A stretch of 64,000 nt of DNA from Arthrobacter sp. B1I2 (GTDB taxonomy: Bacteria; Actinomycetota; Actinomycetes; Actinomycetales; Micrococcaceae), in assembly GCF_030816485.1 (NCBI RefSeq), contig NZ_JAUSYC010000002.1, positions 186,001 to 250,000 of the forward strand. The letters are read 5' to 3'. Both the position numbers and the translations under genes were made by a program. The notes beneath the pieces were generated by a model that saw nothing but the letters and a program-made list of their open reading frames with translations, did no database searches and had not been told where the DNA came from. Of this stretch, positions 36,561 to 60,503 are shown piece by piece (position 1 is the stretch's first letter; each line of letters begins with the position of its first letter).

Positions 36561-36574
36561 TGATATCGATTTCA
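36561..36574. promoter_or_regulatory. Operator TGATATCGATTTCA
   Basis: One mismatch from the perfect palindrome TGATATCGATATCA. It is 74 bases upstream of the 73-residue gene. The reverse complement, read on the minus strand, is exactly the site at 48885. Confidence 0.85.
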
Positions 36575-36830
36575 CCACAGTGTACGGCCCCTTTTCAATG
36601 CGCCCTGTCGCCTGCATGAACCGGCCGCCCGAAACCAAGCCAAGCATGGCCGCGCCGGCTTAGAACCAAGAGTGCATACCTACTTGGCCTTTTGGCGAAG
36701 ACTCCCCTAGCGAACGTCTTCTCTTGGCGTTGGTTCGTTATCCAATTCCAACGCTAGAAGTTCGTCCCTGCCCAATACTCGTACCTCGCTGCTGAGCATC
36801 TATTGCGGGAAGGGCCAGGTTACCTTACTC

Positions 36831-36844
36831 TGATATCGATATCA
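36831..36844. promoter_or_regulatory. Operator TGATATCGATATCA, perfect
   Basis: 14-base perfect palindrome with a central CG, 81 bases upstream of the lyase start. Same sequence as 60490-60503. Probable site for the LacI regulator at 61262. Confidence 0.9.
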
Positions 36845-36924
36845 GTGATGCAGGTCTCGTATTGGCTGCTGCCTTTCCCCTGCCCTATTACTGCTTCGAA
36901 TATGACGAACGAAGGGGTTCACCT

Positions 36925-39900
36925 TTGAAAGACCCAGCAATTTGCCGCCCGGTCGGGGCTGCCCTCGCACTTTCCCTGCTTGTCGCGACTGCGACTGCCG
37001 GGGGCGCAGCCGCAGCATTTCCTCAGGCACCTTCAACCGACACCTCGCAAGGGTTTACGTTCCCAGGAGCAACCTTTGAGGAAGGAACGTCGCCGTCTCT
37101 GCCCGGGGGCTGGAGCCAGAGCGGACCGGGGACGGCCTCTACTGGCACGACTTCGGCACGCACGGGAAAATCAGGTGCCAGAATCAACTCTGTCTCTGAA
37201 ACTGACGCGACGGTGCTCACCTCCCCCGCCGTGAAGCTGAAGAAGACTTCTGACGTTGTTTACTACCGTGCGCTGGTGCGGCCAGGGGAAGGGTCACCGA
37301 GGGTTGAACTTCGGGTCCGGTTCACAGCGGCGAATGGTGATGAAGTAGGCCAGCAGGTTTCCGCCCCTACGGCGATGAAGCCAGGAGCCTGGTCCGAGAT
37401 ATCCCTGACAGCCGCCACCCCAGCTGACGCGAAGGACGTGCAGGTCTCGATTCACGTCTTGGGAGCCGCCGCCGTGGATGTCGATGACATTTCCCCCGAC
37501 GTCCGTCAGCAGCGGGAACTGGTGCCTGATGGAGGGGCAGAAACTGCTACCGATAGTGGCCAGACGGCGCCGGCCGGTTGGTCCCCGGCATCAGTTCAAT
37601 GGACCCCTGTATCAGTCCCGAACCCGTCAGCAGAATCAGGGACAACTAGCCCGGAAAACTGGAAGACGTTTAATTACTCCGCAGCCAAAGCCACGATGGT
37701 TTGGGACAAAGCGGTAGCCCACACTGGCACAAAATCACTGCGCATTGATGGCGTCCCAGGGGGCATCGGTGACTGGCAGCAGGTCAACTATGTCCCGATC
37801 TCTCCAGGCACTTACAAGTTCGGATTCTGGATCAAAGGACAGGACGCGGCCCCTGGTGACATCCGGCCCTTGGTGATTTTCCGTAACGCCAACGGCCAAA
37901 CGGTCGGTGGCGACCGGATCATCCAGAACACTGTGTCCTCCTCGGACTGGACCTATGTTGAGTCAGTATTGGCAGCACCGGCCGGTGCCGCCTCGGTCCG
38001 CATCGACTACCGGCTCTACAACGGCGGGACCGCGTGGTTTGATGACATCACCATCGCGAAGCAAACGACGGTATCTGGCGTTGCCGAGGGAAATACAGCC
38101 GGTACGGATTCGGGAACTGCCCAGACCGGGCAAAATTCCCTGACTCTCATCAATAAGTCGGAAGGCGACCAGTCGGTTCTGGAGTCCTCGCCCATCCCGA
38201 TCGAGCGGCTTGCCGGTTATGACTTCTCCGCCGGAGTGAAGACGGACTTGGCCAACGGCACGGCCACCGCCGGGCTGAAGTACCTGGACGCCAACGGCGT
38301 CACGCTCAGCGAACAGCTGACACAACCCGTGAGTGGCGCTACGGGATGGCATGCCAGCGGCCTGCAGGGCTTTCCTCCCGCGGCAGCAACCGAGGCGCGC
38401 GCATTCGTTCGGCTCACGGGCAAAGGCCAGGCCTGGTTCGATGACATCTCTCTTATCCGTAGCACCGTCGTCAACCAGGACGCCCAGACAATTGCCCGAC
38501 CGTCACTGCTGCTGGACAAGTCTGGGGTCAAGGCTCTGCAGGACCGCGTCAAAACAGGCGTCGTTGGCGAGGAGTACCAGCGCCAGCTCGCGTTGTCCCA
38601 AAAATGGACTGTTGAACAGCTGAAGGACCCGGCGTACTTGGCCAACCCACACAGGGGTCAAAGCAACATCTACACGGTCCCGGCCGGCGCCACCAAGATG
38701 CGCTTGTCCTTCAACGTTGAGGGTAAAGGATCGACCATGGTCGATGCCATCACCCTCACGTCCTTGGCCAACGGTCAGCCCGTGACAATTCCGGACAACA
38801 GTTTCGAGGAATTCGGCTCAGGCGTCAGCCCCTGGACTGCGACAACGGCGGGTGCTGAGGTCAGCAAGACCAGCGATTGGGCCGCAGCCGGAGCCGCATC
38901 CCTCAAATACACCGGGGCTTCCCCCGCGGACAAGGCCACTGTGTCCTTGAACCAGGACCTTCCGGCAACAGCAGGGGCGCGCTACTCCCTTGGTGCCACG
39001 ATCAGCCAGCGTGGACTCATTGAAGGTGCCGGGCTCACGTGGAGCGTCTCATACACGAATGACGCCGGGGCACCAGTCGGGCCAGCCTACAAGGCACCTG
39101 CCTACAACTGGGACACGCACACCCGGTGGGATTCACCACTGTTTGAGGCAACGCAGGCAAGCGCCAACGTGTACCTCGTAACCGGGGACGAAGAAGCTGC
39201 CCAAAAGGCGATCCTTGGACTCAAGTACCTCATTGGTGAATCCATTTGGGGTATGAACTACGCCCTCACCACCGGGGGCAAGCCCAACGGTGAGGATGGC
39301 TACGGGGCCGTACACTTCGGCCGCGCCATGGGAGGTTTTGCCCAGGCCCTGGACCTCGTCATCAACTCCAAATCCATGAGCGCCACCGACCGCGCCTGGC
39401 TAACTGACCGGCTCGGCTGGATGCAGGACACCCAGATGAACCTGACCTACTATGACCGCTCCACCGAAGCAGGCAGGATCTCGAACTGGAATCTTGACCG
39501 GGCCATCGGCGTCGGTCTTGTCAGCATGGCCCTCCCGAACCTGACCTCATCGGCCACGTACCGGGCCCACGCCCAGGGCGAAGTTGAATGGACCCTGGAG
39601 ACAGTCGTCGGGGAGGACGGGGCCTTCCCCGAAACCATCCGCTACCACGCCGCCCCGCTGGTGAGGCTCGTGCCGTTTGCGCAGGCCCTCAAACGGGCCG
39701 GCGGAGTAGACCTGGTCAACAACGACAAGCTGAAAAAGATGTTCTCCTTCCTCGTGAACATCCAGACTCCCATCGATTCGACCAACACCAAGGCCCCGGG
39801 AACCGTCCTGATGCCCGCGATCGGCGACGCTGACTACAACGAAAAGCCCTACCGGATCCTCGGCTGGAACGCTGCCCTGTACAAGGATTCCGACCCGGAG

Positions 39901-40947
39901 CTTTCCGCCGCCATGCAGTGGACCTGGAACCGGGCAGGGTCACCGATGGCCGACACCGGCGCCAACCCCTGGGCACTGCCGCCACTGCTCAACACCGACC
40001 CCGCCCTGCCCTCCAAAGACCCGGCCCTGTCCTCGTCCGCGATCAAGAGCGTCGGGTACGACATCCTGCGCGACAAGGTAGGAACAGCCGACGAGAGCTA
40101 CCTGATCATGTCCAACACCCCCCGGCCCCTGGGCCACAACCACGATGACCGCACCGGCTTCTCCCTCTGGGGCAAGTCCGTACCGCTTGCCCTGGACTCG
40201 GGCGTTGGAGGCTACTTCAACGGCGACAACGTCTGGTTCAACAGTGCAGCGGCCCACAACGTTGTCCAGTTCCAAGCCGCCGGCGCCTGGCAGGGTACGG
40301 CCCCGTCTGTGGAAACACCTGTCCGCTACTACTCGGACAAGCTCGACCTGGTCCAAACCGGCGGTGCCACGCCGGGTGCAACCGACTACCAACGGAACAT
40401 GATCCAGCTCAAGGGCGGATTCGGCGCCTTCCTCGTCTGGGACCGCATCAAGTCCTCCTCACCGAGCCGGTTCAACCTGCACACGCTGACCACGTCAATA
40501 GACCAGGCCCCCGGGTTGCTTACGGCCCACGGTTATCAGGGAGTGGATCTGGATGTCCACCTCCTCGGATCGGCGCAGCCCTCGGTCGGCCTCGACAAGG
40601 GCAAAGTCTCCGGTGACTGGCCGCAAGAGAACCAGCAGTGGCTGCAGCTTGGCCAGCCTGCCGGAACAGACCACACGGTCTTGCTCCAGCCACGGGCGAA
40701 GGATGCAAAGCCAATCGAAACCATCGAACGCCCAACCGGCTCCGGGACCCTCAAAGCGTTCGAGCTTGTCGCTGCAAACGGAGAGCGCGCCCTGGTTGTC
40801 CTCAACAGCGGGGACACCACCGCTACCACCGAGCTCGGACTGACGGGAGGCTGGACGAGCGCTACCCCCGAGGCAAACGGCTCCATCAACGGCACCAGCG
40901 TGAGCGTCAGCGCTCATCAGGCTCTGGTCCTCATGAAGGCCTCGTAG
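36925..40947 (+). CDS. Secreted multidomain polysaccharide lyase, heparinase II/III-like
   Basis: 1340 residues from TTG 36925 with GAAGGGG upstream; in-frame codons back to 36862 precede the signal peptide and lack an RBS. Residues 1-31 form a Sec signal ending GGAAAA. Residues about 35-540 contain several beta-sandwich, carbohydrate-binding-like modules (SLRIDGVPGG, TAWFDDITI, QAWFDDISL repeat the same ending). From about 570 comes an all-helical toroid (NWNLDRAIG near 853, ETIRYHAAP near 904), then the heparinase II/III beta-sandwich with LGHNHDDRTGFSLWG near 1068 and AAAHNVVQF. It should cleave a uronic-acid polysaccharide outside the cell by beta-elimination. Monocistronic, with its own operator and terminator. 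Confidence 0.8.
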   Translation: MKDPAICRPVGAALALSLLVATATAGGAAAAFPQAPSTDTSQGFTFPGATFEEGTSPSLPGGWSQSGPGTASTGTTSARTGKSGARINSVSETDATVLTSPAVKLKKTSDVVYYRALVRPGEGSPRVELRVRFTAANGDEVGQQVSAPTAMKPGAWSEISLTAATPADAKDVQVSIHVLGAAAVDVDDISPDVRQQRELVPDGGAETATDSGQTAPAGWSPASVQWTPVSVPNPSAESGTTSPENWKTFNYSAAKATMVWDKAVAHTGTKSLRIDGVPGGIGDWQQVNYVPISPGTYKFGFWIKGQDAAPGDIRPLVIFRNANGQTVGGDRIIQNTVSSSDWTYVESVLAAPAGAASVRIDYRLYNGGTAWFDDITIAKQTTVSGVAEGNTAGTDSGTAQTGQNSLTLINKSEGDQSVLESSPIPIERLAGYDFSAGVKTDLANGTATAGLKYLDANGVTLSEQLTQPVSGATGWHASGLQGFPPAAATEARAFVRLTGKGQAWFDDISLIRSTVVNQDAQTIARPSLLLDKSGVKALQDRVKTGVVGEEYQRQLALSQKWTVEQLKDPAYLANPHRGQSNIYTVPAGATKMRLSFNVEGKGSTMVDAITLTSLANGQPVTIPDNSFEEFGSGVSPWTATTAGAEVSKTSDWAAAGAASLKYTGASPADKATVSLNQDLPATAGARYSLGATISQRGLIEGAGLTWSVSYTNDAGAPVGPAYKAPAYNWDTHTRWDSPLFEATQASANVYLVTGDEEAAQKAILGLKYLIGESIWGMNYALTTGGKPNGEDGYGAVHFGRAMGGFAQALDLVINSKSMSATDRAWLTDRLGWMQDTQMNLTYYDRSTEAGRISNWNLDRAIGVGLVSMALPNLTSSATYRAHAQGEVEWTLETVVGEDGAFPETIRYHAAPLVRLVPFAQALKRAGGVDLVNNDKLKKMFSFLVNIQTPIDSTNTKAPGTVLMPAIGDADYNEKPYRILGWNAALYKDSDPELSAAMQWTWNRAGSPMADTGANPWALPPLLNTDPALPSKDPALSSSAIKSVGYDILRDKVGTADESYLIMSNTPRPLGHNHDDRTGFSLWGKSVPLALDSGVGGYFNGDNVWFNSAAAHNVVQFQAAGAWQGTAPSVETPVRYYSDKLDLVQTGGATPGATDYQRNMIQLKGGFGAFLVWDRIKSSSPSRFNLHTLTTSIDQAPGLLTAHGYQGVDLDVHLLGSAQPSVGLDKGKVSGDWPQENQQWLQLGQPAGTDHTVLLQPRAKDAKPIETIERPTGSGTLKAFELVAANGERALVVLNSGDTTATTELGLTGGWTSATPEANGSINGTSVSVSAHQALVLMKAS

Positions 40948-40961
40948 GGCCACGAAGGCTC

Positions 40962-41078: not shown

Positions 41079-41095
41079 CCGGCATTCCGAGAAGA

Positions 41096-45184: not shown

Positions 45185-46813
45185 CTATCCTGCGGCCAGG
45201 GCTTCCTCGAATTCCTTGCGTGCCTGGTCTCCCCCGGCTGCCTTCCATGCCGGGACCAGTTCGGATTTGATCGCCGTCACGGGCTTGCGGCCCAGCACCA
45301 CGTCATTGATGGCGGTAGTGATCAGCGTGTTCAGCTGTGCTTTCTTGTTGCTCCAGGTGTCGGAGAAGAGGACAAGGCTGGGGTCATTGATCAGCATGGG
45401 TTCAGTCTTGGTCTGGAATTCGTGGATGAGCTTGGTGCCGTCCTCGAAGCCGGGGTTGAACTGCGGTATGGGTGCATTACTGAGGTAGCTGAAGCTGATG
45501 CCTTTTTCGGCCTTTGCCAGATCCGTGGGGGTGATAACACCGTTTTTGTCGGTCCAGTGGAGGTCCTTGACGCCGTAGGTGACGTTGAGGTGTTCCTGGC
45601 TGCCGAACGGTGAAGCCATGTAGTTGGCGATTCGAAGCATTTCTTTGATGCGCTCGGCGTCGTCGGTCTTTGCGAATGCGGTGAAAAACCCGTACGGGCT
45701 GCCGGCGTGAAGTACGGCTGACTTTCCTTTAGCGGCCGGGGCCACCCAGGGCGCAACCTTGGTGCCCGCTTTGACCGCTGCAGCGTACACGCCGGGCCAG
45801 CCGGTGGCGCTGCCAAGAGTGGTGGCCACGTTGCGGGCGGCAAAGAGCCGGTTGCCGTCCTCCACGGTGATCCCGTCGGGATGTATCGATCCGTCCTGTT
45901 TGACCTGGGCGGCCCATGCCAACGCCGCTTCGAACTGTTCGGTTTCGATCTCGTGGGTGAACTTCCCGCCCTCTTCCCGCCAGTTGTTTGGAGACCCGTT
46001 GCCCAGGCGCCCGTAATACGCGGCGGAGAAGGGATTTGACACTCCCCAGAGAGACTTTCCGGGGTCAGTCACGGCTTTCAGAGCCTCACGGAGCTCCTCG
46101 AGGTCGTGGGGTGCTGTCGTTACACCTGCCGCTGCGAAGCTGTCTGTGTAGGCAAGAATGGGAGCACCACCGGTGGGCCGCGGGCACGGAACACCGTAGA
46201 TGCCACCGTTGAAAACAGTTGCCTGCCACGCCTCGGTGGGAATGTTGGCCAGGTTCGGGTAGTCCTTGATGGCATCGCCCGAAACGTGCGATGTGATCTC
46301 GGTGAATTTGGATTTCAGCAGGGCAGGCGTCTGCGGGATCGGATAGTTACTGCCGAAGGTGACCATGTCGGGTATTTGGCCGCCGGCGACAACGGTCTGG
46401 ACTTTCTGCAGGTACGAGTCAGCCAGAGTGGTCTGGACGTCCAGGTCCGCGTTCAGCTCCTTGTTCATGAATTGCCAGTATTTGTTCTGCTCTTTCGCGG
46501 TTCCGACCGCCCCAAAGGTCAGGGTGAGAAAGCTGAGGCTAGTGCCGTTGCCCGGCGCCGCGTCCACGGTCCTCTTCAGATCATCCAGGGGGTACTTGAA
46601 AAATCCGGCCTGGATCGCTGCGCCCTTGCCGGGCAGATCCGCCTCAACCAGGGAAGAGGGAATGTATGCCGGGAGGGCTACTTTGGTGTTGGCGGCAGTG
46701 TTTCCGGTGGAGGAACCACCACCGCAGCCGGAGAGAAGCCCGGTTCCAACTGCTCCTCCCAGCAGGACGGCTGCGCTGAGGAATCCCCGTCGGGATGGTT
46801 TGAGTACGGTCAT
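45185..46813 (-). CDS. Extracellular solute-binding lipoprotein, LplA-like
   Basis: 542 residues, the large size typical of LplA-type oligosaccharide binders. The N terminus has a twin-arginine-like RRGFLSAAVLLGG and lipobox LLSGC, then a Gly/Ser linker. Mature features include FLTLTFGAVG, YWQFMNKELNADLDV and PDMVTFGSNYPIPQ. It captures the oligosaccharide at the outer face of the membrane for the two permeases upstream. RBS AAAGGAG. No ATPase is encoded here; such systems usually share a general MsmX/MsiK-type ATPase. Confidence 0.93.
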   Translation of the reverse strand: MTVLKPSRRGFLSAAVLLGGAVGTGLLSGCGGGSSTGNTAANTKVALPAYIPSSLVEADLPGKGAAIQAGFFKYPLDDLKRTVDAAPGNGTSLSFLTLTFGAVGTAKEQNKYWQFMNKELNADLDVQTTLADSYLQKVQTVVAGGQIPDMVTFGSNYPIPQTPALLKSKFTEITSHVSGDAIKDYPNLANIPTEAWQATVFNGGIYGVPCPRPTGGAPILAYTDSFAAAGVTTAPHDLEELREALKAVTDPGKSLWGVSNPFSAAYYGRLGNGSPNNWREEGGKFTHEIETEQFEAALAWAAQVKQDGSIHPDGITVEDGNRLFAARNVATTLGSATGWPGVYAAAVKAGTKVAPWVAPAAKGKSAVLHAGSPYGFFTAFAKTDDAERIKEMLRIANYMASPFGSQEHLNVTYGVKDLHWTDKNGVITPTDLAKAEKGISFSYLSNAPIPQFNPGFEDGTKLIHEFQTKTEPMLINDPSLVLFSDTWSNKKAQLNTLITTAINDVVLGRKPVTAIKSELVPAWKAAGGDQARKEFEEALAAG

Positions 46814-46856: not shown

Positions 46857-47795
46857 TCAGCCCTTGACTGCTCCGGTGAGCATGCCTTTGGCGAAGTGTT
46901 TTTGCAGGAAGGGGTAAACGATCAGGATGGGCACGATGGAGACCACAAGGATTGCCATCTGCAGGGCTGCCTGTGGAGGCGGTATGGAGCCGTCCAAGGA
47001 CTGCTGGTAGGTCTGGCCCTGGACTACGAAGGTGCGCAGAACGAGCTGTAGAGGCCATTTGGAGTTGTCGTTGAGGTAGAGGACGGCGTTGAAGAAGGCA
47101 TTCCAGTAGCCCACCGCATAGAAGAGGGAGACCACGGCGATCACAGCACGGGACAACGGCAGAATGATCTTGTTAAGGATGGTGAACTCCGAAGCGCCGT
47201 CAATCCGTGCGCTGTCGATAAGTTCCTGTGGGATGTCCATAAAAAAGGACCGCACGACGATCACATTGAAGGCGTTGACGCAGACCGGAAGGATCAGTGC
47301 CCAGTAGGAATCAATCAGCCCGAGTTCTTTCACCATCAGGTAGGACGGAATCAGTCCCGGAGCGAAGAGAAGGGTAAAGAGGACCGTCATCAGCAGCGGT
47401 TTCGCGCCCAAGGTCTTGGGCCGGGCCAACCCGTATGCGAGGGCCACGGTCGTTACGATGCTGATGAGTGTGCCGACCAGGGTCACGCCGGTGCTGACCA
47501 GCACTGAGCGGGTGACAACCCCGCCGGAGAATATTTGCTGGTACGCGGCAAAAGTTGGCTCGGTAGTCCACAGGACGAACCCGCCGGCCTGCCGGACCGT
47601 CTCCTCATCGGACAGGCTTGTGGAAATCACCGCGACAAAAGGCAGAATCACCAGCACGCATGCGGCGGTCAGGACAATAGCCTTCAGGGCTTGCACGGCC
47701 GGGCTGGGCCTGCCCATCCACATCGGACGCTCGGTACCGGCAAGGCGCCGCGCCCGTGCCGAGGTCTTGCGCTTGCTGAGAGTGGAAATGGTCAT
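46857..47795 (-). CDS. Sugar ABC transporter permease, LplC/YtcP-like
   Basis: 312 residues from ATG 47795, overlapping the previous stop (ATGA). Six membrane segments, with the cytoplasmic EAA motif ELIDSARIDGASEFTILNKIILPLS at about residue 190. C terminus KGMLTGAVKG is family-typical. The start is chosen over the longer frame to 48377, which is antisense-like and out of phase with the upstream permease. Confidence 0.93.
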   Translation of the reverse strand: MTISTLSKRKTSARARRLAGTERPMWMGRPSPAVQALKAIVLTAACVLVILPFVAVISTSLSDEETVRQAGGFVLWTTEPTFAAYQQIFSGGVVTRSVLVSTGVTLVGTLISIVTTVALAYGLARPKTLGAKPLLMTVLFTLLFAPGLIPSYLMVKELGLIDSYWALILPVCVNAFNVIVVRSFFMDIPQELIDSARIDGASEFTILNKIILPLSRAVIAVVSLFYAVGYWNAFFNAVLYLNDNSKWPLQLVLRTFVVQGQTYQQSLDGSIPPPQAALQMAILVVSIVPILIVYPFLQKHFAKGMLTGAVKG

Positions 47796-48884: not shown

Positions 48885-48898
48885 TGAAATCGATATCA
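48885..48898. promoter_or_regulatory. Operator TGAAATCGATATCA
   Basis: One mismatch from the perfect palindrome; the reverse complement equals the site at 36561. Located 79 bases before the lplB start and just outside the terminator of the GH127 operon. Confidence 0.85.
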
Positions 48899-50888: not shown

Positions 50889-50960
50889 AGGACCTCCATG
50901 CCGCTTCAACGCGGCGGACTCAATTTAACAGTGGTTGGGGAGTGGGAAATGACGGTGTTG

Positions 50961-51917
50961 CTAGGCCAACCGCGCCAGGTGTTCGGCGACGAGTTGGGTG
51001 ACACCGAAGACAGGGGCTTGAGTAACTGGGCGGACATCGGTTATTCCGTCCTTGGCCAGGGCTTCACGGAAGGCTGATTGGAGCCTTGGTACGTGCATGC
51101 CAAGGCCTCCGCCCAGAACGACTGGTCCGGTGATGCCCAGTTGGAACAGTGTTTGCGTTGTCATGTCAGCGAGATCCTGTCCGGCACGGTCAAGCATCTT
51201 CTGGCTGGGAAGGTGTCCGGCGTCAGCGGCGTCTACTATCAGACGTGCCTGCTGTGCCCAGTACCGGCGTCCTGTGCCCGCCGAATGGAACAGGGCGATC
51301 AGTTGATTGGGATGATCCAGATCGCACGCGGCTAAGAGACTCTGGGTGAGGGCATCCGCTTCGTAGCCTTGGTTCATTCTGCGCAGGCTGTGGCGGACGG
51401 CTTCCCGGCCGAGCCAGTATCCGCTTCCCTCGTCTCCCAGCAGGTATCCCCATCCCCCTGCCCGTGCCTCGACTCCGCGTGGATTACGTCCCCAGGCCGC
51501 TGACCCTGTCCCGGCGATGACGGCAACTCCGCTGCTGACACAGCCTGCTGCGAGCAGCAGTCGGGAGTCGTGGACGACGGTGGTCAGCGCTTTCGGCGCG
51601 AAGGGGGCAATGAGGGCTTTTAGGGCTTCGGCATCGGCGTCCGTGTCGATTCCGCCGGCGCCGGCGTATACCTGTTCAACGTTTCCGTAGCCAATGTCCG
51701 CGAAAAGCTCTGCGAGGTGTGCGTGGGCAGCTTCCCGGCTGACGTTCTGGACGTTGGCACTGCCGGCGATACTGTCGGCGACAGGCACACCATTTTCGAA
51801 CCGTACGCCGTGAGTCTTGGTCCCTCCGATATCCAGGCCGATCAAGGCGCCCGTTGCGCCGCTGGCCGTAGGGATCATCCCATCGGTGGTGGATAGGGAG
51901 TTCGCTGAGTTGGTCAT
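50961..51917 (-). CDS. BadF/BadG-type sugar kinase (N-acetylglucosamine kinase-like)
   Basis: 318 residues. ASKHA ATPase motifs: GLDIGGTKTHGV near residue 27, AGAGGID, VIAGTGSAAWG, GDEGSGYWLGREAV, and VVLGGGLG. Members phosphorylate GlcNAc or other hexoses. Being next to manA, it may make mannose-6-phosphate or a related hexose-6-phosphate (inference). One base separates it from manA upstream; 72 bases to GH127 downstream. Confidence 0.88.
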   Translation of the reverse strand: MTNSANSLSTTDGMIPTASGATGALIGLDIGGTKTHGVRFENGVPVADSIAGSANVQNVSREAAHAHLAELFADIGYGNVEQVYAGAGGIDTDADAEALKALIAPFAPKALTTVVHDSRLLLAAGCVSSGVAVIAGTGSAAWGRNPRGVEARAGGWGYLLGDEGSGYWLGREAVRHSLRRMNQGYEADALTQSLLAACDLDHPNQLIALFHSAGTGRRYWAQQARLIVDAADAGHLPSQKMLDRAGQDLADMTTQTLFQLGITGPVVLGGGLGMHVPRLQSAFREALAKDGITDVRPVTQAPVFGVTQLVAEHLARLA

Positions 51918-51918: not shown

Positions 51919-53220
51919 TCATGCCTGAGGTGTCGTTACGGCTTTGGTCATAGGGTGGGCGGGCCGTCGATGGGGCATCGCTTCCTGGATCCCTGTGGTG
52001 GCGACGAAGGCAACCAGTGGTTCCGTGCTGCCTGCCCGCAACCTAACAGGGCTTTCATGGGCTCCGGCAAAGGCGCTGTCGCCTTTCCCCAGCTCCAATG
52101 TCTGCAGGCTGGTCTCTAGCACTCCACTGCCGGAGGCCACTAGGACAAGCGCCGGAAGCCCTGCTGGAAGATCGATGTTTGGGGCTCCGGGCTCCAGTTC
52201 GATCCGCTGCAATTGGAACTCGTCGAAGGGAGGCTGCCAGATCCGCTGTCCTTCTGCGGGAGAAGCCGCGGCGAGTCTTGGAACGGGCAGGGGCGTGAAG
52301 TCAACTGTTCTCAACAGTTCGTCAACGTCAATGTGCTTGGCGGTTAGTCCGCCGCGCAGCACGTTATCGGAGGAAGCCATGACTTCGATGCCCAAGCCGT
52401 GTAGATAGGCGTGAATATTCCCGGCGGGCAGGTAGACCGCTTCGCCTGGGCGAAGGGAAACCCTGTTCAACATCAGGGATATCAAAACCCCCGGGTCCCT
52501 TGGATACGCTTCACTAAGGTCCAGTGCCGTTTTCAAAGCCGCGGTATACGGACCCTCGGGAATCGTCGAGCCCAGCAGCGCCGCCACGGCGTCAACCGCG
52601 CAGGAGACTTCATCGCCGCCCCTGATCAGTCCGGTGAAGGTTTGTCGGATAGCAGATGGGTCGTCGGCGCCGGCAAGCGTGGAGGTGGCCTCCTGCAGGA
52701 CCTCGGGGATTTCGGCCCCTGTCTCCCTGAACAGGGTCACGAGCGCGTCGAAAATCGCTTTGGTCTCCGATGCGGGGCGGAACCCGCACAAGGCCTCGAA
52801 GTCCGTGAGGGCCAGAATCATTTCGGGCTTGTGGTTGGGGTCCTTGTAGTTGCGTGTTTGGGCTTCTTTCGGGAGGCCGAGGGCCTCTTCGGCTGCGAAC
52901 CCGGCTGCGGCCTGTTCCCGGGTCGGGTGCACCTGCAGCGAGAGTGGAGATTCAGCGGCCAGCACCTTCATCAGGAACGGCAATGTGCTCCCGAAGGCCG
53001 CGTGGCTGTCCGGCCCCAGCAGGCCTTCCGGATCAGCTTCTATCAACTTATCCAGCCGTATATGACCGCGGTCCAGTATTGCCTCTGACGGCGCACCTGG
53101 ATGGGCGCCGATCCACATCTCCGCCTCCGGGGCGCCTGACGGTGGATGGCCAAGGAAATCGGCGATGAGGGTCTTTGATCCCCATGCGTAATCCCTGATG
53201 CTGTTGTTCAGTGTGTACAT
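51919..53220 (-). CDS. manA: Mannose-6-phosphate isomerase, class I
   Basis: 433 residues from ATG 53220; the open frame to 53286 has no RBS. Zinc site blocks: SLQVHPTREQA, DPNHKPEMILAL and YLPAGNIHAYLHG; N terminus NSIRDYAWGSK is standard. It converts mannose-6-phosphate to fructose-6-phosphate. A dedicated copy inside a polysaccharide operon points to mannose, or a C2 relative, as a component of the substrate. Confidence 0.93.
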   Translation of the reverse strand: MYTLNNSIRDYAWGSKTLIADFLGHPPSGAPEAEMWIGAHPGAPSEAILDRGHIRLDKLIEADPEGLLGPDSHAAFGSTLPFLMKVLAAESPLSLQVHPTREQAAAGFAAEEALGLPKEAQTRNYKDPNHKPEMILALTDFEALCGFRPASETKAIFDALVTLFRETGAEIPEVLQEATSTLAGADDPSAIRQTFTGLIRGGDEVSCAVDAVAALLGSTIPEGPYTAALKTALDLSEAYPRDPGVLISLMLNRVSLRPGEAVYLPAGNIHAYLHGLGIEVMASSDNVLRGGLTAKHIDVDELLRTVDFTPLPVPRLAAASPAEGQRIWQPPFDEFQLQRIELEPGAPNIDLPAGLPALVLVASGSGVLETSLQTLELGKGDSAFAGAHESPVRLRAGSTEPLVAFVATTGIQEAMPHRRPAHPMTKAVTTPQA

Positions 53221-53325
53221 AGCTCTTCTCAAAATCAGGAACCGCATGCTCAGAGGGGTAAGCGGTGGGAGGAAGTCGTCACTCATTGGGTTTTATCCGC
53301 TCAGGCGTGACCGAGGGGGTGGGCC

Positions 53326-55422
53326 CTATGCGGCCTGTACGGTGAAGGTCCTTGCGGAGAGACGTCCAATGGGCGTGGTGGCGGTTAGGAATAAGTACCC
53401 GGATGGGTCCCACTTCGTCTCGAAGCCTTGGCCGGATCCCAGCCAGTTGATGGTGACTTCCTGTCCGGCCCACCGGGGCAGGTGCAGGGTCAGTTCGTTC
53501 TGTGCATGATCGCGCTGCCAGACCGTCACCAGGTCCCTTTCGGAAGCCCGGAGTCCCACGGATAACCACTGGTCATTCCACCGGGGTATTCCTGACGGAT
53601 AGAACGCCGTGGACGCTTGGATCTCCGGCAGTATTTCCTTGTGCACGGAGACGGCTTCGCGGACTAACGCCAGCTGGCCGGTTGTCATTTTGTCGAGGAA
53701 GCCCGAGAGGCACATCCGGCCGAGCATCCCCGTTGCCATGGTGAACCGTATTTCCTCATCGTCCATTCCGGGTTGTGGGTAGGCCCAGTTGGCTGCCTGC
53801 TCGGGGAGGACGCTGAGGAAGGCGTTCGCGGCGATGGGCGGATACAGCAGCGGGTCCTGCTGGTCCGAGGTCGACTGAAGGTCAAGGCGTGCCAGGAGTG
53901 CGTAGTCCTGGCGCATCGCACCGGAGGCGCAGTTTTCGATAGTGACGTGGGGATGGCGGGCTTTGATGGCGTCCAGCCAGTCAAGGTAGGCCCGGTTATG
54001 TCCGAGCAGGCCCGCGCCGGAGGAGCCGGCGCCGAGGTCAGTTCCGGTACCGGCGGTGATGTTGTAGTCGAGCTTGAAATACACCGTGTTGAAGTCGGCC
54101 ACGAGCCGGTCCACCGTCTCATCAAGGTGGGCTCTTGCTGCGGGGTGGCGGAAGTCGAGGTGGTACCGGCCGTGTTCTACTACCCGGACACCTCGGCGCT
54201 GAAGGAAGGCTTCTTCGGGGAGGGAGGCGGCCATGGCGCTTCGGACGCCCACCACTTCCGGCTCAAGCCAGAGCCCGACCCCCATGCCTGCGGAGCTGAT
54301 GGCGTCGGTGACCTCGGACAGTCCGTTGGGGAACCGTGCAGTTGAGGGTTGCCATTCCCCTACCGCGTCCCACCAATCGGTTGTGTCGTCGTACCAGCCT
54401 GCGTCGATGCAGAAGATGTCCGCACCGGCTTCAGCAGCGGCTGTGACCAGCGGGAGGAGTTTGCCGGTGCTCGGATCCCCCATCAGGGTGTTCATGAAGT
54501 CGTTGTAAATCACGGGCGGCCGGTCCGAAAAAATGTGGCCCCGCAAGGCCCGGCGGTGTGCGGTCATCTGGGCAACCGCCCCATGCAAGCCGTCCCGGCT
54601 GACCGCCAGGGCGGCTGGGACGGTAGTGAATTGGTCGCCGGGCTCCAAGGAATGGAGCCAGTTGTGTTGATCATCTGTGGGGCCGAGCAGGGCAAGGTCG
54701 AGGGCGTCGCGGGTCTCACTCAGTTCCCAGGCCCATCCCCCGTTGTGTTCGACCTGCCACATCCAGCACCACTGGTCGTCGGCGTCAACCAGGGCCGCGG
54801 TGGGCAAAGGCCCCCCGGTGGACCAGGATGAGGTCGAGGCGCGAAGCAGATGCCCGCGCTGGTCCTGTTCGTGAAGGCCCAGGTTCAGGTCAGGCAGGGA
54901 CCCGCGCAGGTCCTCCAGGGTCCATTGGTTTTCGCCCAGCCACTGGGAGGTGGCCGAGGCGAGCTGCAAAGTTGTGGCCTCGGCGGCCCGGTGTCCGGCC
55001 AGGAGTGGGAGGGCCAGGGTGGTGACGGCCTGAAGCGCGACGGGTTTGCGTCCGTTGTTGCGGACGGTCGTCACGGCCTGTACGGTGCTTGCGCCGTTGG
55101 CCGCGCGGAGGACAGTCTCTGCTTCCAGTCCGGTTTCCGTGTCGCGCTGGAGCACTGTGAGGATGTTCCAGCTGCCCTCCGATGCGGCGGTGTGGCTGAC
55201 GTACCTGAGGCGTGCACCGACGGTGGATTCGGCGTACCGTTGGCTGGTTCTGGCTCTTCCCTCCTCTACGGTGAGGATTTCCACCAGGGCAGGGCCGGAC
55301 GCCAGCGGTGACGAGGCGGCCTCGGCCGGGTGCAGATAGGCGATGCCGACAGGGCTTTCCTTGCCGGCACGAAGCGCCAAGTGCAGGGTGCCGTTTGACC
55401 ATGAAATGAAGCTGCTTTCCAT
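53326..55422 (-). CDS. GH36 alpha-galactosidase
   Basis: 698 residues, normal for the family. N-terminal beta-supersandwich, then the barrel with YNDFMNTLMGDP, IDAGWYDD, LWLEPEVVG, nucleophile Asp in FKLDYN (about residue 452) and acid/base Asp in STSDQQDP (about 518). No signal peptide, so cytoplasmic. It removes alpha-linked galactose, or a similar sugar, from the imported oligosaccharide. Starts two bases after the hydroxyacid dehydrogenase stop. Confidence 0.94.
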   Translation of the reverse strand: MESSFISWSNGTLHLALRAGKESPVGIAYLHPAEAASSPLASGPALVEILTVEEGRARTSQRYAESTVGARLRYVSHTAASEGSWNILTVLQRDTETGLEAETVLRAANGASTVQAVTTVRNNGRKPVALQAVTTLALPLLAGHRAAEATTLQLASATSQWLGENQWTLEDLRGSLPDLNLGLHEQDQRGHLLRASTSSWSTGGPLPTAALVDADDQWCWMWQVEHNGGWAWELSETRDALDLALLGPTDDQHNWLHSLEPGDQFTTVPAALAVSRDGLHGAVAQMTAHRRALRGHIFSDRPPVIYNDFMNTLMGDPSTGKLLPLVTAAAEAGADIFCIDAGWYDDTTDWWDAVGEWQPSTARFPNGLSEVTDAISSAGMGVGLWLEPEVVGVRSAMAASLPEEAFLQRRGVRVVEHGRYHLDFRHPAARAHLDETVDRLVADFNTVYFKLDYNITAGTGTDLGAGSSGAGLLGHNRAYLDWLDAIKARHPHVTIENCASGAMRQDYALLARLDLQSTSDQQDPLLYPPIAANAFLSVLPEQAANWAYPQPGMDDEEIRFTMATGMLGRMCLSGFLDKMTTGQLALVREAVSVHKEILPEIQASTAFYPSGIPRWNDQWLSVGLRASERDLVTVWQRDHAQNELTLHLPRWAGQEVTINWLGSGQGFETKWDPSGYLFLTATTPIGRLSARTFTVQAA

Positions 55423-55424: not shown

Positions 55425-56474
55425 TTATGCCATCCTCATCAGGTCGCTCAGGCCGACAGGGAACCGCTGGGGTGCCGCTGCGGCGTAGCGTTCGATTTCG
55501 TCGATTGCGTAGGCCGCCAGCCGGTGCAGTTCGGTGCCCATCGAACCGGCTATATGGGGTGTCAGAAGTACGTTGGGAAGGGTGTACAACGGATGGCCCG
55601 CGGGCAAGGGTTCCGGGCTGGTGACGTCCAGGAAAGCATTCAGCCGGCCTGATTCCAACTCACCGGTCAGTGCGTTGTGGTCCACAAGTTCCCCCCGGGC
55701 GGTGTTGATCAGTGTCGAGCCGTCCTTCATAGCGGCAAGCTGGGCAGGGCCGATCATGTTAAGGGTTTCTGGCAGAACCGGCGCATGCAGGGACACGATG
55801 TCGCTGCAGCTCATGAGTTCATCCAGGCTTACCCGGCGGGCGCCCAGCCGCAGTGCTTCGGCGTCGCTGATGGTGGGGTCGTACACGGTGACATCGAAAT
55901 CAAAAGGCCGGAGACGTTCGAGGACCAGCCTTCCGATGGTGGACGCTCCCACGATCCCGATGGCCCGCTCGTAGTTGCCGGTGTCCGGAAATTCCAGCTC
56001 CCGGTCAATTTTGGTTTGGCGCTGCGTGTAGAGGTGGCTGGCAGCGATCGTTGACTTTCCCGCCAGGAGGATGAGGCCAAGGGTGAATTCGGCAACCGGC
56101 AAGGCATTTGCCTCGGCAGCCGTTGTCACTGTGACACCGCGTTCCCAGCATTCAGGCATGACATGGCCCTTGACGCTTCCACCTGCATGGGCGATGAGCC
56201 GGAGGCGGGGCATTCGGGCAAGAACCGTTGCGTCGATTCGGGGCGAAAACCAGCCGGTGAGGAGAACATCAACGTCTTCAAGGGCCTCATCGGGAGTCGT
56301 TTCAAAGTCCTGAATGACCAAGCTGAAGTCGCAATCGCAGATTGACTCGAGCCGGCTGCGGAGACGTTTGGAAAACAGGGCGTCCCGCAGGTCAGCGTCC
56401 TGCATCGCCAAGGCAACTTTGGGCCTGAACCGAGGCGTTTTTGGCACGGCGGTGCTGTGCAGTGCTGCATTCAA
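55425..56474 (-). CDS. D-isomer-specific 2-hydroxyacid dehydrogenase-family protein
   Basis: 349 residues. NAD loop GIVGASTIGRLVLERL, catalytic Arg in NTARGELVD, DVTSPEPLPAGHPLY, and catalytic His in LTPHIAGSMG. Not closely like PGDH. In sugar operons such proteins reduce keto acids or oxidise sugar acids. Its ATG overlaps the stop of the isomerase gene (ATGA). The two may act together on an acidic sugar released by the lyase (inference). Confidence 0.88.
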   Translation of the reverse strand: MNAALHSTAVPKTPRFRPKVALAMQDADLRDALFSKRLRSRLESICDCDFSLVIQDFETTPDEALEDVDVLLTGWFSPRIDATVLARMPRLRLIAHAGGSVKGHVMPECWERGVTVTTAAEANALPVAEFTLGLILLAGKSTIAASHLYTQRQTKIDRELEFPDTGNYERAIGIVGASTIGRLVLERLRPFDFDVTVYDPTISDAEALRLGARRVSLDELMSCSDIVSLHAPVLPETLNMIGPAQLAAMKDGSTLINTARGELVDHNALTGELESGRLNAFLDVTSPEPLPAGHPLYTLPNVLLTPHIAGSMGTELHRLAAYAIDEIERYAAAAPQRFPVGLSDLMRMA

Positions 56475-57319
56475 TTGATGTCCTCATCCCAATGTCTGTC
56501 GAGCCATGTCCGGACGGACCCGAGTGCGGCGTCCAGTGGAGCCGCCTGCGGATACCAGGCTTTTTCCCACTCGAGGGTGACCGGGCCGCAGTAACCGTGG
56601 CGAACCAGCAGCTGGCCAAACTCCTCGGTAGGCAAGGAACCCTTGCCGATGGGCAGCGGTGTGCTGCTGGCCGGCATGTCGGCGTCCTTGATCTGGACGC
56701 AGCCGTGACCGGCCGACAGCCAGGGCGCGAGGGTTTTCCACGTCTCTTCCAGCTGTTCGCCGACACGCCAAGGATGCAGTACATCCCATACCACCCCCAC
56801 TGGTCCATCCACGCGGTGGAGGATCCCGGCGATGTCCTTGCCTGAGGGATGCGAATCGTGAGTCTCCAGCACCGGCAGGACGCCGAGGTCCGTGGCGTAT
56901 GAGGTGACGGCACTGAGCCTGCTTGCCGCCCGTCCATCCACCTCTTCACGGGATTCCACCAGGGGCGGGACGTCGGTGAAGGCGGCAGGTCCGGTATCTG
57001 CTCCGGGGAATACGCGGACCATCGGTGCCCCGAGGTCCCTGGCGAAGGCGATTGCCTGGGTGAGCTCGGCGAGGACGGCTTCATCGGGCCCGGGAGCCGC
57101 CACCTTCACGTAGCTCGCGATGGCGGTTACCTGCACTTCTGCTGCTTCAATCTGGTGCCGGAGGTCGTCCCGGGCCTGTGTTCCCATGTGTGGGTCGGCG
57201 ATTTCCCCTGCAGCGAGCCGCAGTTCAATGCCCGGGATGCGGTGTTGTTGCAGCCAGGCGAGGACGACGTCCAGGGGTATCCCGGGTGCGCCCAGCGTTG
57301 AGGCTGACGGCGTGATCAT
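56471..57319 (-). CDS. Sugar phosphate isomerase/epimerase family (xylose isomerase-like TIM barrel)
   Basis: 282 residues from ATG 57319 with AGAGGAAC upstream; the longer frame to 57457 overlaps the permease gene. Metal-binding pattern of AP endonuclease-2/IolE-like barrels: GIELRLAAGEIAD, VLETHDSHPSGKD, VVWDVLHPW, CVQIKDAD, and VTLEWEK. Likely a ketose/aldose epimerase or dehydratase for a less common sugar; substrate unknown. Coupled to the dehydrogenase gene. Confidence 0.85.
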   Translation of the reverse strand: MITPSASTLGAPGIPLDVVLAWLQQHRIPGIELRLAAGEIADPHMGTQARDDLRHQIEAAEVQVTAIASYVKVAAPGPDEAVLAELTQAIAFARDLGAPMVRVFPGADTGPAAFTDVPPLVESREEVDGRAASRLSAVTSYATDLGVLPVLETHDSHPSGKDIAGILHRVDGPVGVVWDVLHPWRVGEQLEETWKTLAPWLSAGHGCVQIKDADMPASSTPLPIGKGSLPTEEFGQLLVRHGYCGPVTLEWEKAWYPQAAPLDAALGSVRTWLDRHWDEDIN

Positions 57320-57342
57320 GTTGTTCCTCTTGTTTGGAAGGG

Positions 57343-58212
57343 TCAGCCCTTGAGGCCTGCGCTGGCCATGCCCTCTACGAAGCGCTTCTGGGCAAAGATG
57401 AACAGGATGATCATGGGCAGCGTGGCAAGCGTGGCGCCGGCCATGAGGTAGGGCCACTGCACGTTGAGCGGATCCTGCGAGAAGATCGCAAGCCCTACCT
57501 GCAGGGGCCGGAGCTCATCGGAGTTGGTGACGATGAGGGGCCACAGGAAGCTGTTCCACGCCGCTTCTATCTGGAAGACGCCGATGGTGACCAGAGCGGG
57601 TTTCACCAGGGGCGTCATGATGCGGAAGAAGATCCCGAATTCGCCGAGGCCGTCCACACGCGCCGCATCCGCCAGCTCGGAAGGAAGCGTGACGTAGAAC
57701 TGGCGCGCCAGGAAGGTGTAGAGCGGTGCGATCGCCAAAGGGATGATCAGCGCCCACCAGGTGTTGAGCCAGCCAGTCCCGCCCATCCCAAGGATGTCGT
57801 TTCCACCGAAGAGCGGGATGGACTTCACCAGGAGGAACATCGGCACCAGAATGATCTGGAAGGGAACCATCATCAGGGCGATGAAATAGTTCAGGATTCC
57901 CTTCGCGCCGCGGATCGGAGCTTTTGCCAGGGCATATCCGGCCATGGTGCAAAAGACCAGGGTCAGGGCTGTCTGCCCGACCGTGAGCACCAGGCTGTTC
58001 CAGAAGTACCGGAGGAACGGTGCTGCGTCCATTGCCTCCACAAAGTTGGACCAGTGGAACTCTCTGGGCAGCCAGGTGAACGTTCCGACCTCGCCGGTTG
58101 ATTTGAGCGCGGTGAGGATCATCCAGATGAACGGGCCGACCATGAGCAAACTGCCCAGTGAGAGCACAACGTAGAGGACCACGCGCCCCGGGGTTAGTTT
58201 CGTCTTAACCAT
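57343..58212 (-). CDS. Carbohydrate ABC transporter permease, MalG-like
   Basis: 289 residues from ATG 58212, overlapping the MalF-like gene by eight bases. Six membrane segments and the EAA loop ELADAARVDGLGEFGIFFRIMTPL at about residue 185. C terminus KRFVEGMASAGLKG is typical of MalG-type subunits. Confidence 0.94.
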   Translation of the reverse strand: MVKTKLTPGRVVLYVVLSLGSLLMVGPFIWMILTALKSTGEVGTFTWLPREFHWSNFVEAMDAAPFLRYFWNSLVLTVGQTALTLVFCTMAGYALAKAPIRGAKGILNYFIALMMVPFQIILVPMFLLVKSIPLFGGNDILGMGGTGWLNTWWALIIPLAIAPLYTFLARQFYVTLPSELADAARVDGLGEFGIFFRIMTPLVKPALVTIGVFQIEAAWNSFLWPLIVTNSDELRPLQVGLAIFSQDPLNVQWPYLMAGATLATLPMIILFIFAQKRFVEGMASAGLKG

Positions 58213-59161
58213 CCTGGTTCTTCCTTTGCGAACGACCACCCAGGTAGATGAAGGCAGCGACGAGTATGAGCATGATGACCGTTTCGGCCGAGGCATAGCC
58301 CAGCCGGAGGCCTTCGAAGGCGTTGTTGTAGATGTCGAAGGTCAGCACGGTCGTGGAATTGACCGGACCACCCTTGGTCATAACGAAGACGAGGTCGAAG
58401 ACCTGGAAGGTCTGCACGATGGCGGTGATCAACACGAAGTAATGGGCGGGTCCCAAAGCCGGCCAGATCACGTTCCGGAAAACCTGCCAGCGATTGGCGC
58501 CATCCAGGTTTGCGGCCTCCAGCAGTTCCTTGGACACGCCCTGCAGGGCGGCCAGATAGACGATCATCTTGGCACCAAGTCCTTGCCACACGCCGACGGC
58601 GATCAAGGCGGGCAGGGCTGTGGCGGGGTCATTCAACCACTCGGACCGCGTGAGTCCGAAGAGGCTACCAACAGCGTTGGCAAGGCCTGCGCCCGGGTGG
58701 TAAATCCACAGCCACACCGAGGCGACAGCCACGGTTGCGGTCACGACGGGCAGGTAATAGACCGTCCTGAAGAACCCCAGACCGCGGATCTTTTGGTTCA
58801 GGCCCAACGCGATGATCAAAGCCAACCCCATGGACAGGGGAACCACGGCGAGAGTGTAGAGGATGGTGTTGCGGAACGCCGCTTGGAACCGGGTGTCCTG
58901 GAACAGCTCCACGTAGTTCTCAGTGCCGATCATCTGCCAGGCGCCGGAGAAATCGTAGTTCGTGAAACTCAGGAAGATTGCCGCGAGGGCTGGTACGGCG
59001 AGAAAGAATGTTGAATGCAGCAGGGCTGGTGCCAGGAACAACCAGCCAGCGCGGGACTGCTGACGGGTGAGTCGTGACTTCCGCCCCGCAGGGCGCGCGG
59101 CGCGGGTGTTAGCCGCCCCCGCCGCGCGCACCGCTGGTTTGGTGTCCTTAAGAGTGCTCAC
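58205..59161 (-). CDS. Carbohydrate ABC transporter permease, MalF-like
   Basis: 318 residues with an Ala/Arg-rich cytoplasmic tail of about 35 residues, then membrane segments from GWLFLAPALLHST. EAA loop ELLEAANLDGANRWQVFRNVIWPAL at about residue 225. ATG 59161 overlaps the binding-protein stop (ATGA). Second importer of the locus. Confidence 0.94.
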   Translation of the reverse strand: MSTLKDTKPAVRAAGAANTRAARPAGRKSRLTRQQSRAGWLFLAPALLHSTFFLAVPALAAIFLSFTNYDFSGAWQMIGTENYVELFQDTRFQAAFRNTILYTLAVVPLSMGLALIIALGLNQKIRGLGFFRTVYYLPVVTATVAVASVWLWIYHPGAGLANAVGSLFGLTRSEWLNDPATALPALIAVGVWQGLGAKMIVYLAALQGVSKELLEAANLDGANRWQVFRNVIWPALGPAHYFVLITAIVQTFQVFDLVFVMTKGGPVNSTTVLTFDIYNNAFEGLRLGYASAETVIMLILVAAFIYLGGRSQRKNQDG

Positions 59162-60435
59162 TTTGATTGCTGCTCCAGGGCCTTGAGCGTTTCCTCTGCA
59201 GTTTTCTTGCCGAGCAGGGCGTCATCAAGGCTTGTTCCGAACGTTCCCCGAAGATCGAGCCAGTTGGCAGCTCCGCCCTCAAACTTGGCGTCGGCCAGGT
59301 TCGCGGCTACGAACGTGCTCGCCGGGTTGGACTTCACGACAGCCGAGTCCGCGGCGTCCTTGCCTGCCGGGACGGCGAAGTTCAGGGTAGCAATGCCCGC
59401 TTCAGCTTCCGGCTTGCTGAGCTCCTGGATGAAATCCCAGGCCGCTGCCTTGAGCTTGCTGCTCTTACCGACGGAGGCAAGCTGCCCGCCGGTGAACATG
59501 GAGCCTTCCTTGTCCTCGAGGTTGAAGTAGACGAGGTCGTCACAGACGGCCTGGCCTACGCCCTTGTCCGAGCAGTCAATGTATCCGCCGGTGAAGCCCA
59601 TGGCAGCTTCGCCCGTGTTGACCAGCGGGGACTTTGCCGCGTTCTGTGCACCGTACTTCTGCACGTTATTCACCATAGACTTCATCCATTCAAGGGTCTG
59701 AACGCCCTCGGAACCGGCGAATTCAGCCCCACCGTCGGTGTTGTAGAGGGGCTTGCCCAATGAACCGAGCAGAGCGACGAAGTCCTGACGGTACCCGCCC
59801 GGTGCGGCCCAGAAGTCAAAGCCTGCCTGGGTGATGTTCCCTGCGCCATCCTTGACGGTGAGCTTCTCGGCAGCGGTCTTGATTTCGGCCATGGTTGTCG
59901 GCGGCTTCGACGGATCAAGCCCTGCCTTCTCGAAGAGCGATTTCCGCAGTGCCAAAGGCTTGGGCCCGGCGATCAACGGAACGGCATAGACCTTGCCCTT
60001 GTATTCCGAGGCCGGAACGAGGGCCGGATTCGTCGATTCTCCGAGCGATTCAGCGGTGGCGCCAAACGTTGAGAGGTCTTCAAAAACGTTCTTGGCGGCA
60101 AACGGAGGCACCCAGCCGATTCCGGTTACCAGCACGTCGTATCCCTGGCCTCCAGCAATGGAGGTGGAGATCTTCTGGTTGAGGGTGTCGAAAGTGGCAA
60201 AGTCAGGTTCGACAGTTACCTGCGGGTACTTCGTCTTGAAGGATGCCACTACCTTTTCGAGCTCGGCTTTACCTTCGTTGCTGGCTGGGTAGCTGGGAAC
60301 CAGTACCCGGAGAGTCCCTGTTACTTCCGCGGGATTGGAAGCGGGGGCAGTAGATGTACCGCCAGAGCCACAGGCTCCAAGGGCAAGGGTGCCGGCGACT
60401 GCCAGCGCGAGAAATCCTGCACGTCGACGTGCCAT
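59158..60435 (-). CDS. Sugar-binding lipoprotein of the Mal-type importer
   Basis: 425 residues from ATG 60435 with perfect AGGAGG. Signal MARRRAGFLALAVAGTLALG with lipobox LGAC, then a Gly/Ser/Thr linker. Bacterial extracellular solute-binding family 1: LRVLVPSYPASNEGK, KYPQVTVEPDFATFD, and GGQGYDVLVTGIGW. First gene of a nine-gene operon running to 48957 and controlled by the perfect operator 55 bases upstream. The matching ATPase is not encoded in the window. Confidence 0.94.
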   Translation of the reverse strand: MARRRAGFLALAVAGTLALGACGSGGTSTAPASNPAEVTGTLRVLVPSYPASNEGKAELEKVVASFKTKYPQVTVEPDFATFDTLNQKISTSIAGGQGYDVLVTGIGWVPPFAAKNVFEDLSTFGATAESLGESTNPALVPASEYKGKVYAVPLIAGPKPLALRKSLFEKAGLDPSKPPTTMAEIKTAAEKLTVKDGAGNITQAGFDFWAAPGGYRQDFVALLGSLGKPLYNTDGGAEFAGSEGVQTLEWMKSMVNNVQKYGAQNAAKSPLVNTGEAAMGFTGGYIDCSDKGVGQAVCDDLVYFNLEDKEGSMFTGGQLASVGKSSKLKAAAWDFIQELSKPEAEAGIATLNFAVPAGKDAADSAVVKSNPASTFVAANLADAKFEGGAANWLDLRGTFGTSLDDALLGKKTAEETLKALEQQSK

Positions 60436-60489
60436 ATCAAATCCTCCTGATGTAGCCACCCGGCGTTGGATGGCGCTGCAATGAGTGTA

Positions 60490-60503
60490 TGATATCGATA
60501 TCA
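60490..60503. promoter_or_regulatory. Operator TGATATCGATATCA, perfect
   Basis: Identical to 36831-36844. It sits in the 153-base divergent region between the binding-protein operon and yesL-lacI, so it can control both and give autoregulation. Confidence 0.9.

Follow-up and report, generated by a model that had tools for sequence, protein, structure and literature searches.

A 14-base palindrome as putative LacI-type operator of a polysaccharide regulon on two replicons of Arthrobacter sp. B1I2

Described systems and the locus of Arthrobacter sp. B1I2

In a survey of LacI-family regulons the binding sites lie mostly 30-140 bp before start codons and autoregulation is common (PMC4052901), and against this background a 14-base palindrome, TGATATCGATATCA, is described here, which recurs upstream of genes of a polysaccharide locus in Arthrobacter sp. 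B1I2. The DNA analysed, referred to as the window, comprises 64,000 nucleotides (bases 186001-250000) of contig C2 (298,310 bases), one of four contigs of a 4.68-Mb genome. We propose, with a probability of roughly 0.85, that the palindrome is the operator of the LacI-family regulator encoded at 61262-62290 and of its 94% identical chromosomal copy, which would act by repression released by a sugar and would together run one regulon on two replicons. Set against the regulons in the accessible part of the survey, the system is alike in its even palindrome with a central CG, in autoregulation and in its targets of sugar uptake and breakdown, and unlike in having two near-identical regulators, one operator type, two replicons and a dyad that abuts the operator (PMC4052901). 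By the criteria given there, it is a typical local LacI regulon (PMC4052901), with six sites at two loci, of which the site at 60490 precedes DUF624-lacI as in a local autoregulated regulon. No description of TGATATCGATATCA for any LacI regulator was found in the literature searched, with subscription journals mostly outside the search. The exact string turned up in two papers, which by title and abstract do not deal with bacterial regulation, and a text search for TGATATCGAT together with LacI gave, among the matches listed, none concerning a LacI operator by its title or the start of its abstract.

The closest described locus is the xanthan utilization region of plasmid pPANIL_6C from Paenarthrobacter ilicis 6C (PMC12772297). 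By annotation, it is likewise a plasmid-borne lyase locus with an N-acetylglucosamine-kinase-like kinase, manA, a hydroxyacid dehydrogenase, two ABC transporters and LacI regulators (PMC12772297). However, pPANIL_6C carries PL8, GH38, GH3 and GH9, whereas the window locus carries a lyase with Alginate_lyase and Heparinase-like domains, the protein u1317, GH127 and GH36, and operators are not reported in the text examined on pPANIL_6C (PMC12772297). PL8, GH9, GH38 and GH3 are absent among the Pfam matches of the scanned locus genes, u1317 and a 542-residue protein having matched nothing, and the identification as a xanthan utilization region was therefore rejected. The GntR1 and GntR2 genes of Corynebacterium glutamicum are both chromosomal. 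In the part of the report consulted, their products are functionally equivalent regulators with common targets and GlxR-cAMP control on top, a precedent for a pair of equivalent regulators combined with GlxR, whereas the present pair belongs to the LacI family, is spread over two replicons and is predicted only (PMC2230225). The circular plasmid pStoSoilB3 (AP024645.1) of Arthrobacter sp. StoSoilB3 shares the core locus, a LacI protein with 81% identity and two exact operators with companion dyads at equivalent places, while GH127, the u1317 operon and an operator of the 36561 or 48885 type were not found there.

Operator sites and their LacI regulator

Within the window the palindrome is exact at 36831 and 60490 and occurs with one mismatch at 36561 and 48885 (Table 1), at the coordinates and with the mismatch numbers of the initial annotation, which was also right in placing divergent promoters in two of the intergenic regions. 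The start codons lie 73 bases from the site for 36561 (ATG 36487, minus strand), 80 bases for 36831 (TTG 36925, plus), 79 bases for 48885 (ATG 48805, minus) and, for 60490, 54 bases (ATG 60435, minus) and 85 bases (ATG 60589, plus), so that the distances of 55-81 bases previously given are close to the 54-80 measured to the start codons. The operator is an even palindrome with a central CG and lies within the 30-140 bp upstream that are the norm for LacI-type operators, as far as the survey could be consulted (PMC4052901). All four sites fall into non-coding DNA, which by the gene list of this analysis makes up 1213 of the 26025 bases (4.7%) in the locus. That a 14-base match is unexpected by chance in 64 kb holds true, since the number expected from base composition is 0.00004 for exact copies and 0.002 if up to one mismatch is allowed; with up to three mismatches, five matches were found as opposed to a shuffle mean of 0.79, and none of 100 shuffles reached five. 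The statement that the window has no further copy applies to copies with at most one mismatch, as it overlooked a fifth match with two mismatches, at 55889 within the 2-hydroxyacid dehydrogenase gene, a copy that relatives have not retained. Of the four main transcription units described, the one behind 36561 is only a 73-residue reading frame.

In the whole genome only six sites with at most one mismatch occur, four exact and two with one mismatch, all in two LacI loci; the copies scattered away from such loci that would speak against an operator are thus not seen. The two sites outside the window, both exact, are at 3433369 and 3448966 of contig C1, in a chromosomal relative of the locus that has the lyase, GH127, kinase, mannose-6-phosphate isomerase (PMI), GH36, dehydrogenase, TIM-barrel, transporter, DUF624 and LacI genes in common with the window, aligning in three blocks with 86-88% DNA identity. 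The 24-kb regulon initially described is accordingly real as a four-site locus but too small in extent: with the two chromosomal sites and the 94% identical LacI gene there, it would span two replicons. The control circuit is well supported, though of a known, ordinary kind. Contig C2 is called plasmid-like, since ten proteins scanned at its two ends include one with conjugative TraG/T4SS domains and another with an FtsK domain, and since the nearest named relative locus lies on a circular plasmid; a comparison of the contig ends showed no exact overlap. In the stretch from GH36 to LacI the plasmid-like copy shares 91.5% identity with genome G198 but 87.9% with the chromosomal copy, which in turn shares 93.5% with genome G029. 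The plasmid-like and chromosomal copies thus do not stem from a recent duplication, each being nearer to another genome in this stretch. The lyase of the plasmid-like copy is 92.9% identical to that of G198, and the chromosomal lyase is 87.8% identical to the plasmid-like one and 87.4% to that of G198. The C1 locus is without most of the u1317/solute-binding/permease operon and its operator, small u1317 remnants persisting; G029 and G081 likewise hold only u1317 remnants. The chromosomal PMI gene, with a frame of about 268 residues, matches over 259 of 455. These remnants and the shortened PMI (L011:15689-16001; L011/L012 junction, C1 ~3437700-3441800) look as if decaying, the plasmid-like copy being the fuller one.

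The 61262 protein aligns over most of its length to the LacI, PurR and CcpA structures and has the N-terminal helix-turn-helix and the periplasmic-binding-protein-like sensor domain of a LacI-family member. It was searched for, together with the exact 14-mer, in 198 genomes of the same genus, with up to ten LacI candidates scored per genome. A match at E ≤ 1e-90 was obtained in 19 genomes, with at least 68% identity in 11 and only 46-49% in the other eight. Exactly the 11 genomes with the closer LacI contain the exact site, which occurs in 0 of the 187 others and in 0 of the eight with only distant relatives, and every one of the 21 exact sites in those 11 genomes lies inside the fetched LacI loci (hypergeometric p 3e-18 for the co-occurrence, a statistic that takes no account of shared descent). 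Of the 295 genomes in the family sample four contain the exact site, among them G000 and G081, which have the LacI. The sequence GVSVPTVSRVLTGNIPVS is identical in all 12 aligned LacI proteins, including that of the window and leaving out StoSoilB3, and the two copies of strain B1I2 have an identical helix-turn-helix and differ in about 6% of their residues, mostly in the effector domain. The suggestion that the adjacent LacI is the likely binder thus gains support from comparison (11/11 genomes with an ortholog as opposed to 0/187 without), from the site accompanying the LacI gene in differing neighbourhoods and from its retention in the out-of-sample plasmid, and the assignment of the four sites as its putative operators is strongly supported.

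Conservation was followed in 13 loci picked by LacI or locus similarity, independently of the operator: 12 from 11 genomes, and plasmid AP024645.1, added later as an independent case. Each has at least one exact site, and of the 31 sites with at most one mismatch 23 are exact, the remaining eight all sharing one change, the half-site TGAAATC. The only 14-mers present in 13/13 loci are TGATATCGATATCA and its one-base shift CTGATATCGATATC. G071, G084, G108 and G119 have a different gene neighbourhood, yet exact sites flank the LacI gene; the equivalent of the 36831 site is found in all six loci with this lyase (five exact, G029 with one mismatch), and the 48885 site recurs in G198. In the alignment of the SBP1/DUF624 intergenic region (SBP1 being a solute-binding protein) of eight loci, 84 of 186 columns are invariant and the longest invariant run, TGTATGATATCGATATCAG, with 19 bases, contains the 60490 operator. 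Another palindrome, GGAAAACGTTATCC, is shared by six (L083, L086, L087, L088, L091, L093) of 13 loci that belong to the 46-49% LacI relatives, and is perhaps the operator of this sister group, whose recognition helix looks alike.

Predicted promoters, companion dyad and rival explanations

Both exact operators of the window, 36831 and 60490, overlap with predicted promoters (Table 1), which fits repression lifted by a sugar, and their positions would be those of a classical repressor. In 8/10 lyase- or transporter-class promoters a TTGC-type hexamer is followed, after N17, by a TA-type hexamer whose last base is the first of the operator, and on the other strand of the SBP1 class TTGC(G/A)(C/T)-N17-TA-type hexamers enclose the operator in 8/8 cases (7 SBP1 promoters and one G006 site). 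The plus-strand -10-like element TGTATGAT for DUF624-lacI also overlaps the operator and is invariant in eight loci, and DUF624-lacI would be autoregulated via the 60490 operator. From the sites, their positions, conservation and co-occurrence, which are read directly from the DNA, we infer the promoter assignments as well as binding, repression, induction and cross-control. Without inducer, each operator would be occupied by a LacI dimer, which would cover the start region at the lyase promoter and the spacer between -35 and -10 at the SBP1 promoter. Breakdown and uptake of the polysaccharide as well as the DUF624-lacI operon of the repressor itself would thereby be blocked. A sugar freed from the polysaccharide, probably a product of the lyase, would release LacI, and the plasmid-like and chromosomal loci would act as one two-replicon regulon, as the identical helix-turn-helix of both LacI copies and the six operators of one kind suggest.

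Several observations weigh against this interpretation. As most sites are near the LacI gene, part of the co-occurrence and conservation is co-inheritance, and the eight-locus alignment contains another invariant run, of 18 bases, within the start of the SBP1 coding sequence. G371 and G389 of the family sample contain one exact site each, inside mechanical reading frames, with no LacI match within 3 kb. The 36561 and 48885 operators are absent from the chromosomal copy, the genes behind 48885 being gone too. The promoters are consensus readings worked out for 36831 and 60490 only, and the lyase promoters of G029 and G081 are without the -35/-10 layout.

Directly beside the operator (offset 0) a companion dyad is found, with GNGA-N6-TC at 16 of 31 sites and the looser GNG-N7-TC at 20, whereas at every other offset from -6 to 39 the former does not occur and the latter at most once in 31. 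Since the 31 sites are related, among them eight orthologous SBP1 and six lyase promoters, these counts stand for about five promoter kinds. The dyad is missing at 11 of 31 sites: 36561, 48885, two in G081, one each in G198 and G185, 34328 in G088, and the first of the two lacI-flanking sites in G071, G084, G108 and G119. According to the parts consulted of the source papers, the GlxR consensus is TGTGA-N6-TCACA (PMC4254451, PMC7999487). Scored against GTGA-N6-TCAC, 18 of 29 sites reach 6 or 7 of 8 positions at offset 0, while a random place reaches at least 6 in 0.43%; the best copies match 7/8 and none is perfect. Among the gene products of the strain is one with matches to Crp/Fnr-family structures, including 4byy and 4cyd, which we take to be GlxR of C. 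glutamicum. The dyad is kept as a candidate Crp/GlxR-type box only, since no copy fits the consensus fully, since the window shows no excess of TGTGANNNNNNTCACA (9 matches with up to two mismatches, 21 expected) and since the dyad overlaps the predicted -35 in the SBP1 class. For these same reasons we give even odds to its being instead a promoter part, an extended LacI contact or the site of another protein, although the constant offset in promoters of different genes and the close relative of Crp/GlxR proteins encoded in the genome point the other way. A composite cassette, in which a LacI operator abuts a Crp/GlxR-type box so that local sugar and global carbon status are read side by side, is a tentative idea and somewhat doubtful in its full form; the cassette would have moved with its regulator among the polysaccharide loci of the genus, and two near-identical repressors would jointly run loci of unequal completeness, after loss of the second transporter operon, u1317 included, from the chromosomal one.

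It is improbable that each LacI copy controls its own replicon only, in insulated circuits. Since the copies differ by about 6%, mostly in the effector domain, their inducers could differ, but the helix-turn-helix is identical, the operator type is the same on both replicons and nothing was seen that would prevent cross-binding. Much less probable still is that another regulator binds the operators, for example the products of the LacI genes at 11877-12956 and 13134-14243 of the window or another LacI paralog. There are 35 matches to the LacI protein in the genome at E ≤ 0.001, the two orthologs included, and LacI operators are alike as a class; however, the next paralogs are at most 37% identical, the site follows the ortholog group with at least 68% identity and not the 46-49% group (the only other group tested), and of 17 window genes compared LacI alone exceeds 45% identity in 13/13 loci. 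That the copies arose by chance or are passive cargo of one mobile block is hardly credible: the patchy, accessory nature of the locus and the closeness of the sites to lacI would fit it, but the number of exact copies expected per window is negligible, the 14-mer is invariant in the eight-locus alignment while much of its flank is not, and it is present in different neighbourhoods.

Genes of the locus and further observations

The genes of the locus are listed in Table 1 together with the sites. The lyase candidate is above the cut-off for both PF05426 and PF07940, and a match to the alginate lyase structure 6jp4 was found (E 1e-6); PF05426 proteins or homologs are present in 10/13 loci, the exceptions being G084, G088 and G185. 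Family searches with u1317 gave no Pfam or NCBIfam match, and 163 relatives were found in Streptomyces, Paenibacillus and others; from its predicted fold, it is possibly a member of an unnamed lyase family. By its position, the 542-residue protein is probably the solute-binding protein of the second transporter. The 2-hydroxyacid dehydrogenase is present in 11/13 loci, with about 50% identity in G108 and G119; the two loci where none was found are those of G071 and G084, the latter on a cut contig. Near the LacI gene of G108 (L103:14786-16615) an alpha/beta-hydrolase is fused to a 2-hydroxyacid dehydrogenase (609 residues), and G119 has an 82% relative of it. A search with the 73-residue protein returned four proteins, itself included; a 52% relative in G006 sits between the operator of that locus and a gene with an Alginate_lyase domain.

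Table 1. Coordinates of the genes, operators, predicted promoters and companion dyads of the window locus.
Feature	Position	Strand	Remarks
73-aa gene	36266..36487	-	behind 36561 operator
Operator TGATATCGATTTCA (putative)	36561..36574	.	1 mismatch; precedes 73-aa gene
Predicted lyase promoter TTGCGG-N17-TACTCT	36803..36831	+	-10 ends on first base of operator
Operator TGATATCGATATCA (putative)	36831..36844	.	exact; precedes lyase gene
Companion dyad GTGA-N6-TCTC	36845..36858	+	abuts operator; candidate Crp/GlxR-type box
Polysaccharide lyase candidate	36925..40947	+	CBM4_9, Alginate_lyase (PF05426), Heparinase II/III-like C-terminal domain
u1317, 1317 aa	41096..45049	-	no Pfam match; predicted CBM35-like module, lyase-like toroid core and fn3
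542-aa protein	45185..46813	-	no family match
ABC permease	46857..47795	-	
ABC permease	47792..48805	-	
Operator TGAAATCGATATCA (putative)	48885..48898	.	1 mismatch; precedes permease/solute-binding/u1317 operon
GH127-family hydrolase	48957..50909	-	
BadF/N-acetylglucosamine-kinase-like kinase	50961..51917	-	
Gene	51919..53286	-	above TIGR00218 cut-off
GH36-type hydrolase (melibiase)	53326..55422	-	nearest NCBIfam model beta-L-arabinopyranosidase, below cut-off
2-hydroxyacid dehydrogenase	55425..56474	-	
Xylose-isomerase-like TIM-barrel protein	56471..57340	-	
ABC sugar permease	57343..58296	-	
ABC sugar permease	58205..59161	-	
SBP1, lipoprotein-like solute-binding protein	59158..60435	-	
Predicted DUF624-lacI promoter TTGGAT-N16-TATGAT	60466..60493	+	-10 overlaps operator
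Predicted SBP1-operon promoter TTGCGC-N17-TACACT	60484..60512	-	operator within spacer
Operator TGATATCGATATCA (putative)	60490..60503	.	exact; common to two divergent promoters
Companion dyad GAGG-N6-TCAC	60504..60517	+	abuts operator; candidate Crp/GlxR-type box
DUF624 membrane protein	60589..61221	+	presumably YesL-like
LacI-family regulator, proposed binder	61262..62290	+	PF00356 and PF13377 above cut-off

The inducer is likely a sugar made by the enzymes of the locus. The mannose-6-phosphate isomerase and the kinase point to mannose or a similar hexose, the lyase with its Alginate_lyase and Heparinase-type domains points to a uronate-containing polysaccharide, and the GH127 and GH36 proteins are similar to enzymes whose names refer to arabinose, aceric acid or galactose links. 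A regulator, its likely operator and six target sites are proposed for a polysaccharide regulon of a soil actinobacterium that had not been characterised, and the system would be a natural case of one repressor type common to a plasmid-like element and the chromosome. Among the putatively regulated genes is u1317, from a family without Pfam match that is lyase-like by predicted fold, and the fixed-offset companion dyad is the element that could raise the interest of an otherwise ordinary circuit.

Elsewhere in the window, the LacI-family genes at 11877-12956 (-) and 13134-14243 (+) are arranged back to back, and their products are about 30% identical to the 61262 LacI. LamB/YcsF and carboxyltransferase-domain genes lie at 27526-29039 (-), a set which presumably resembles the 5-oxoprolinase/urea-amidolyase type. 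The stretch 7589-11599, with malate synthase G and an FAD-linked oxidase, is 76% identical to a plasmid of Arthrobacter dokdonellae.

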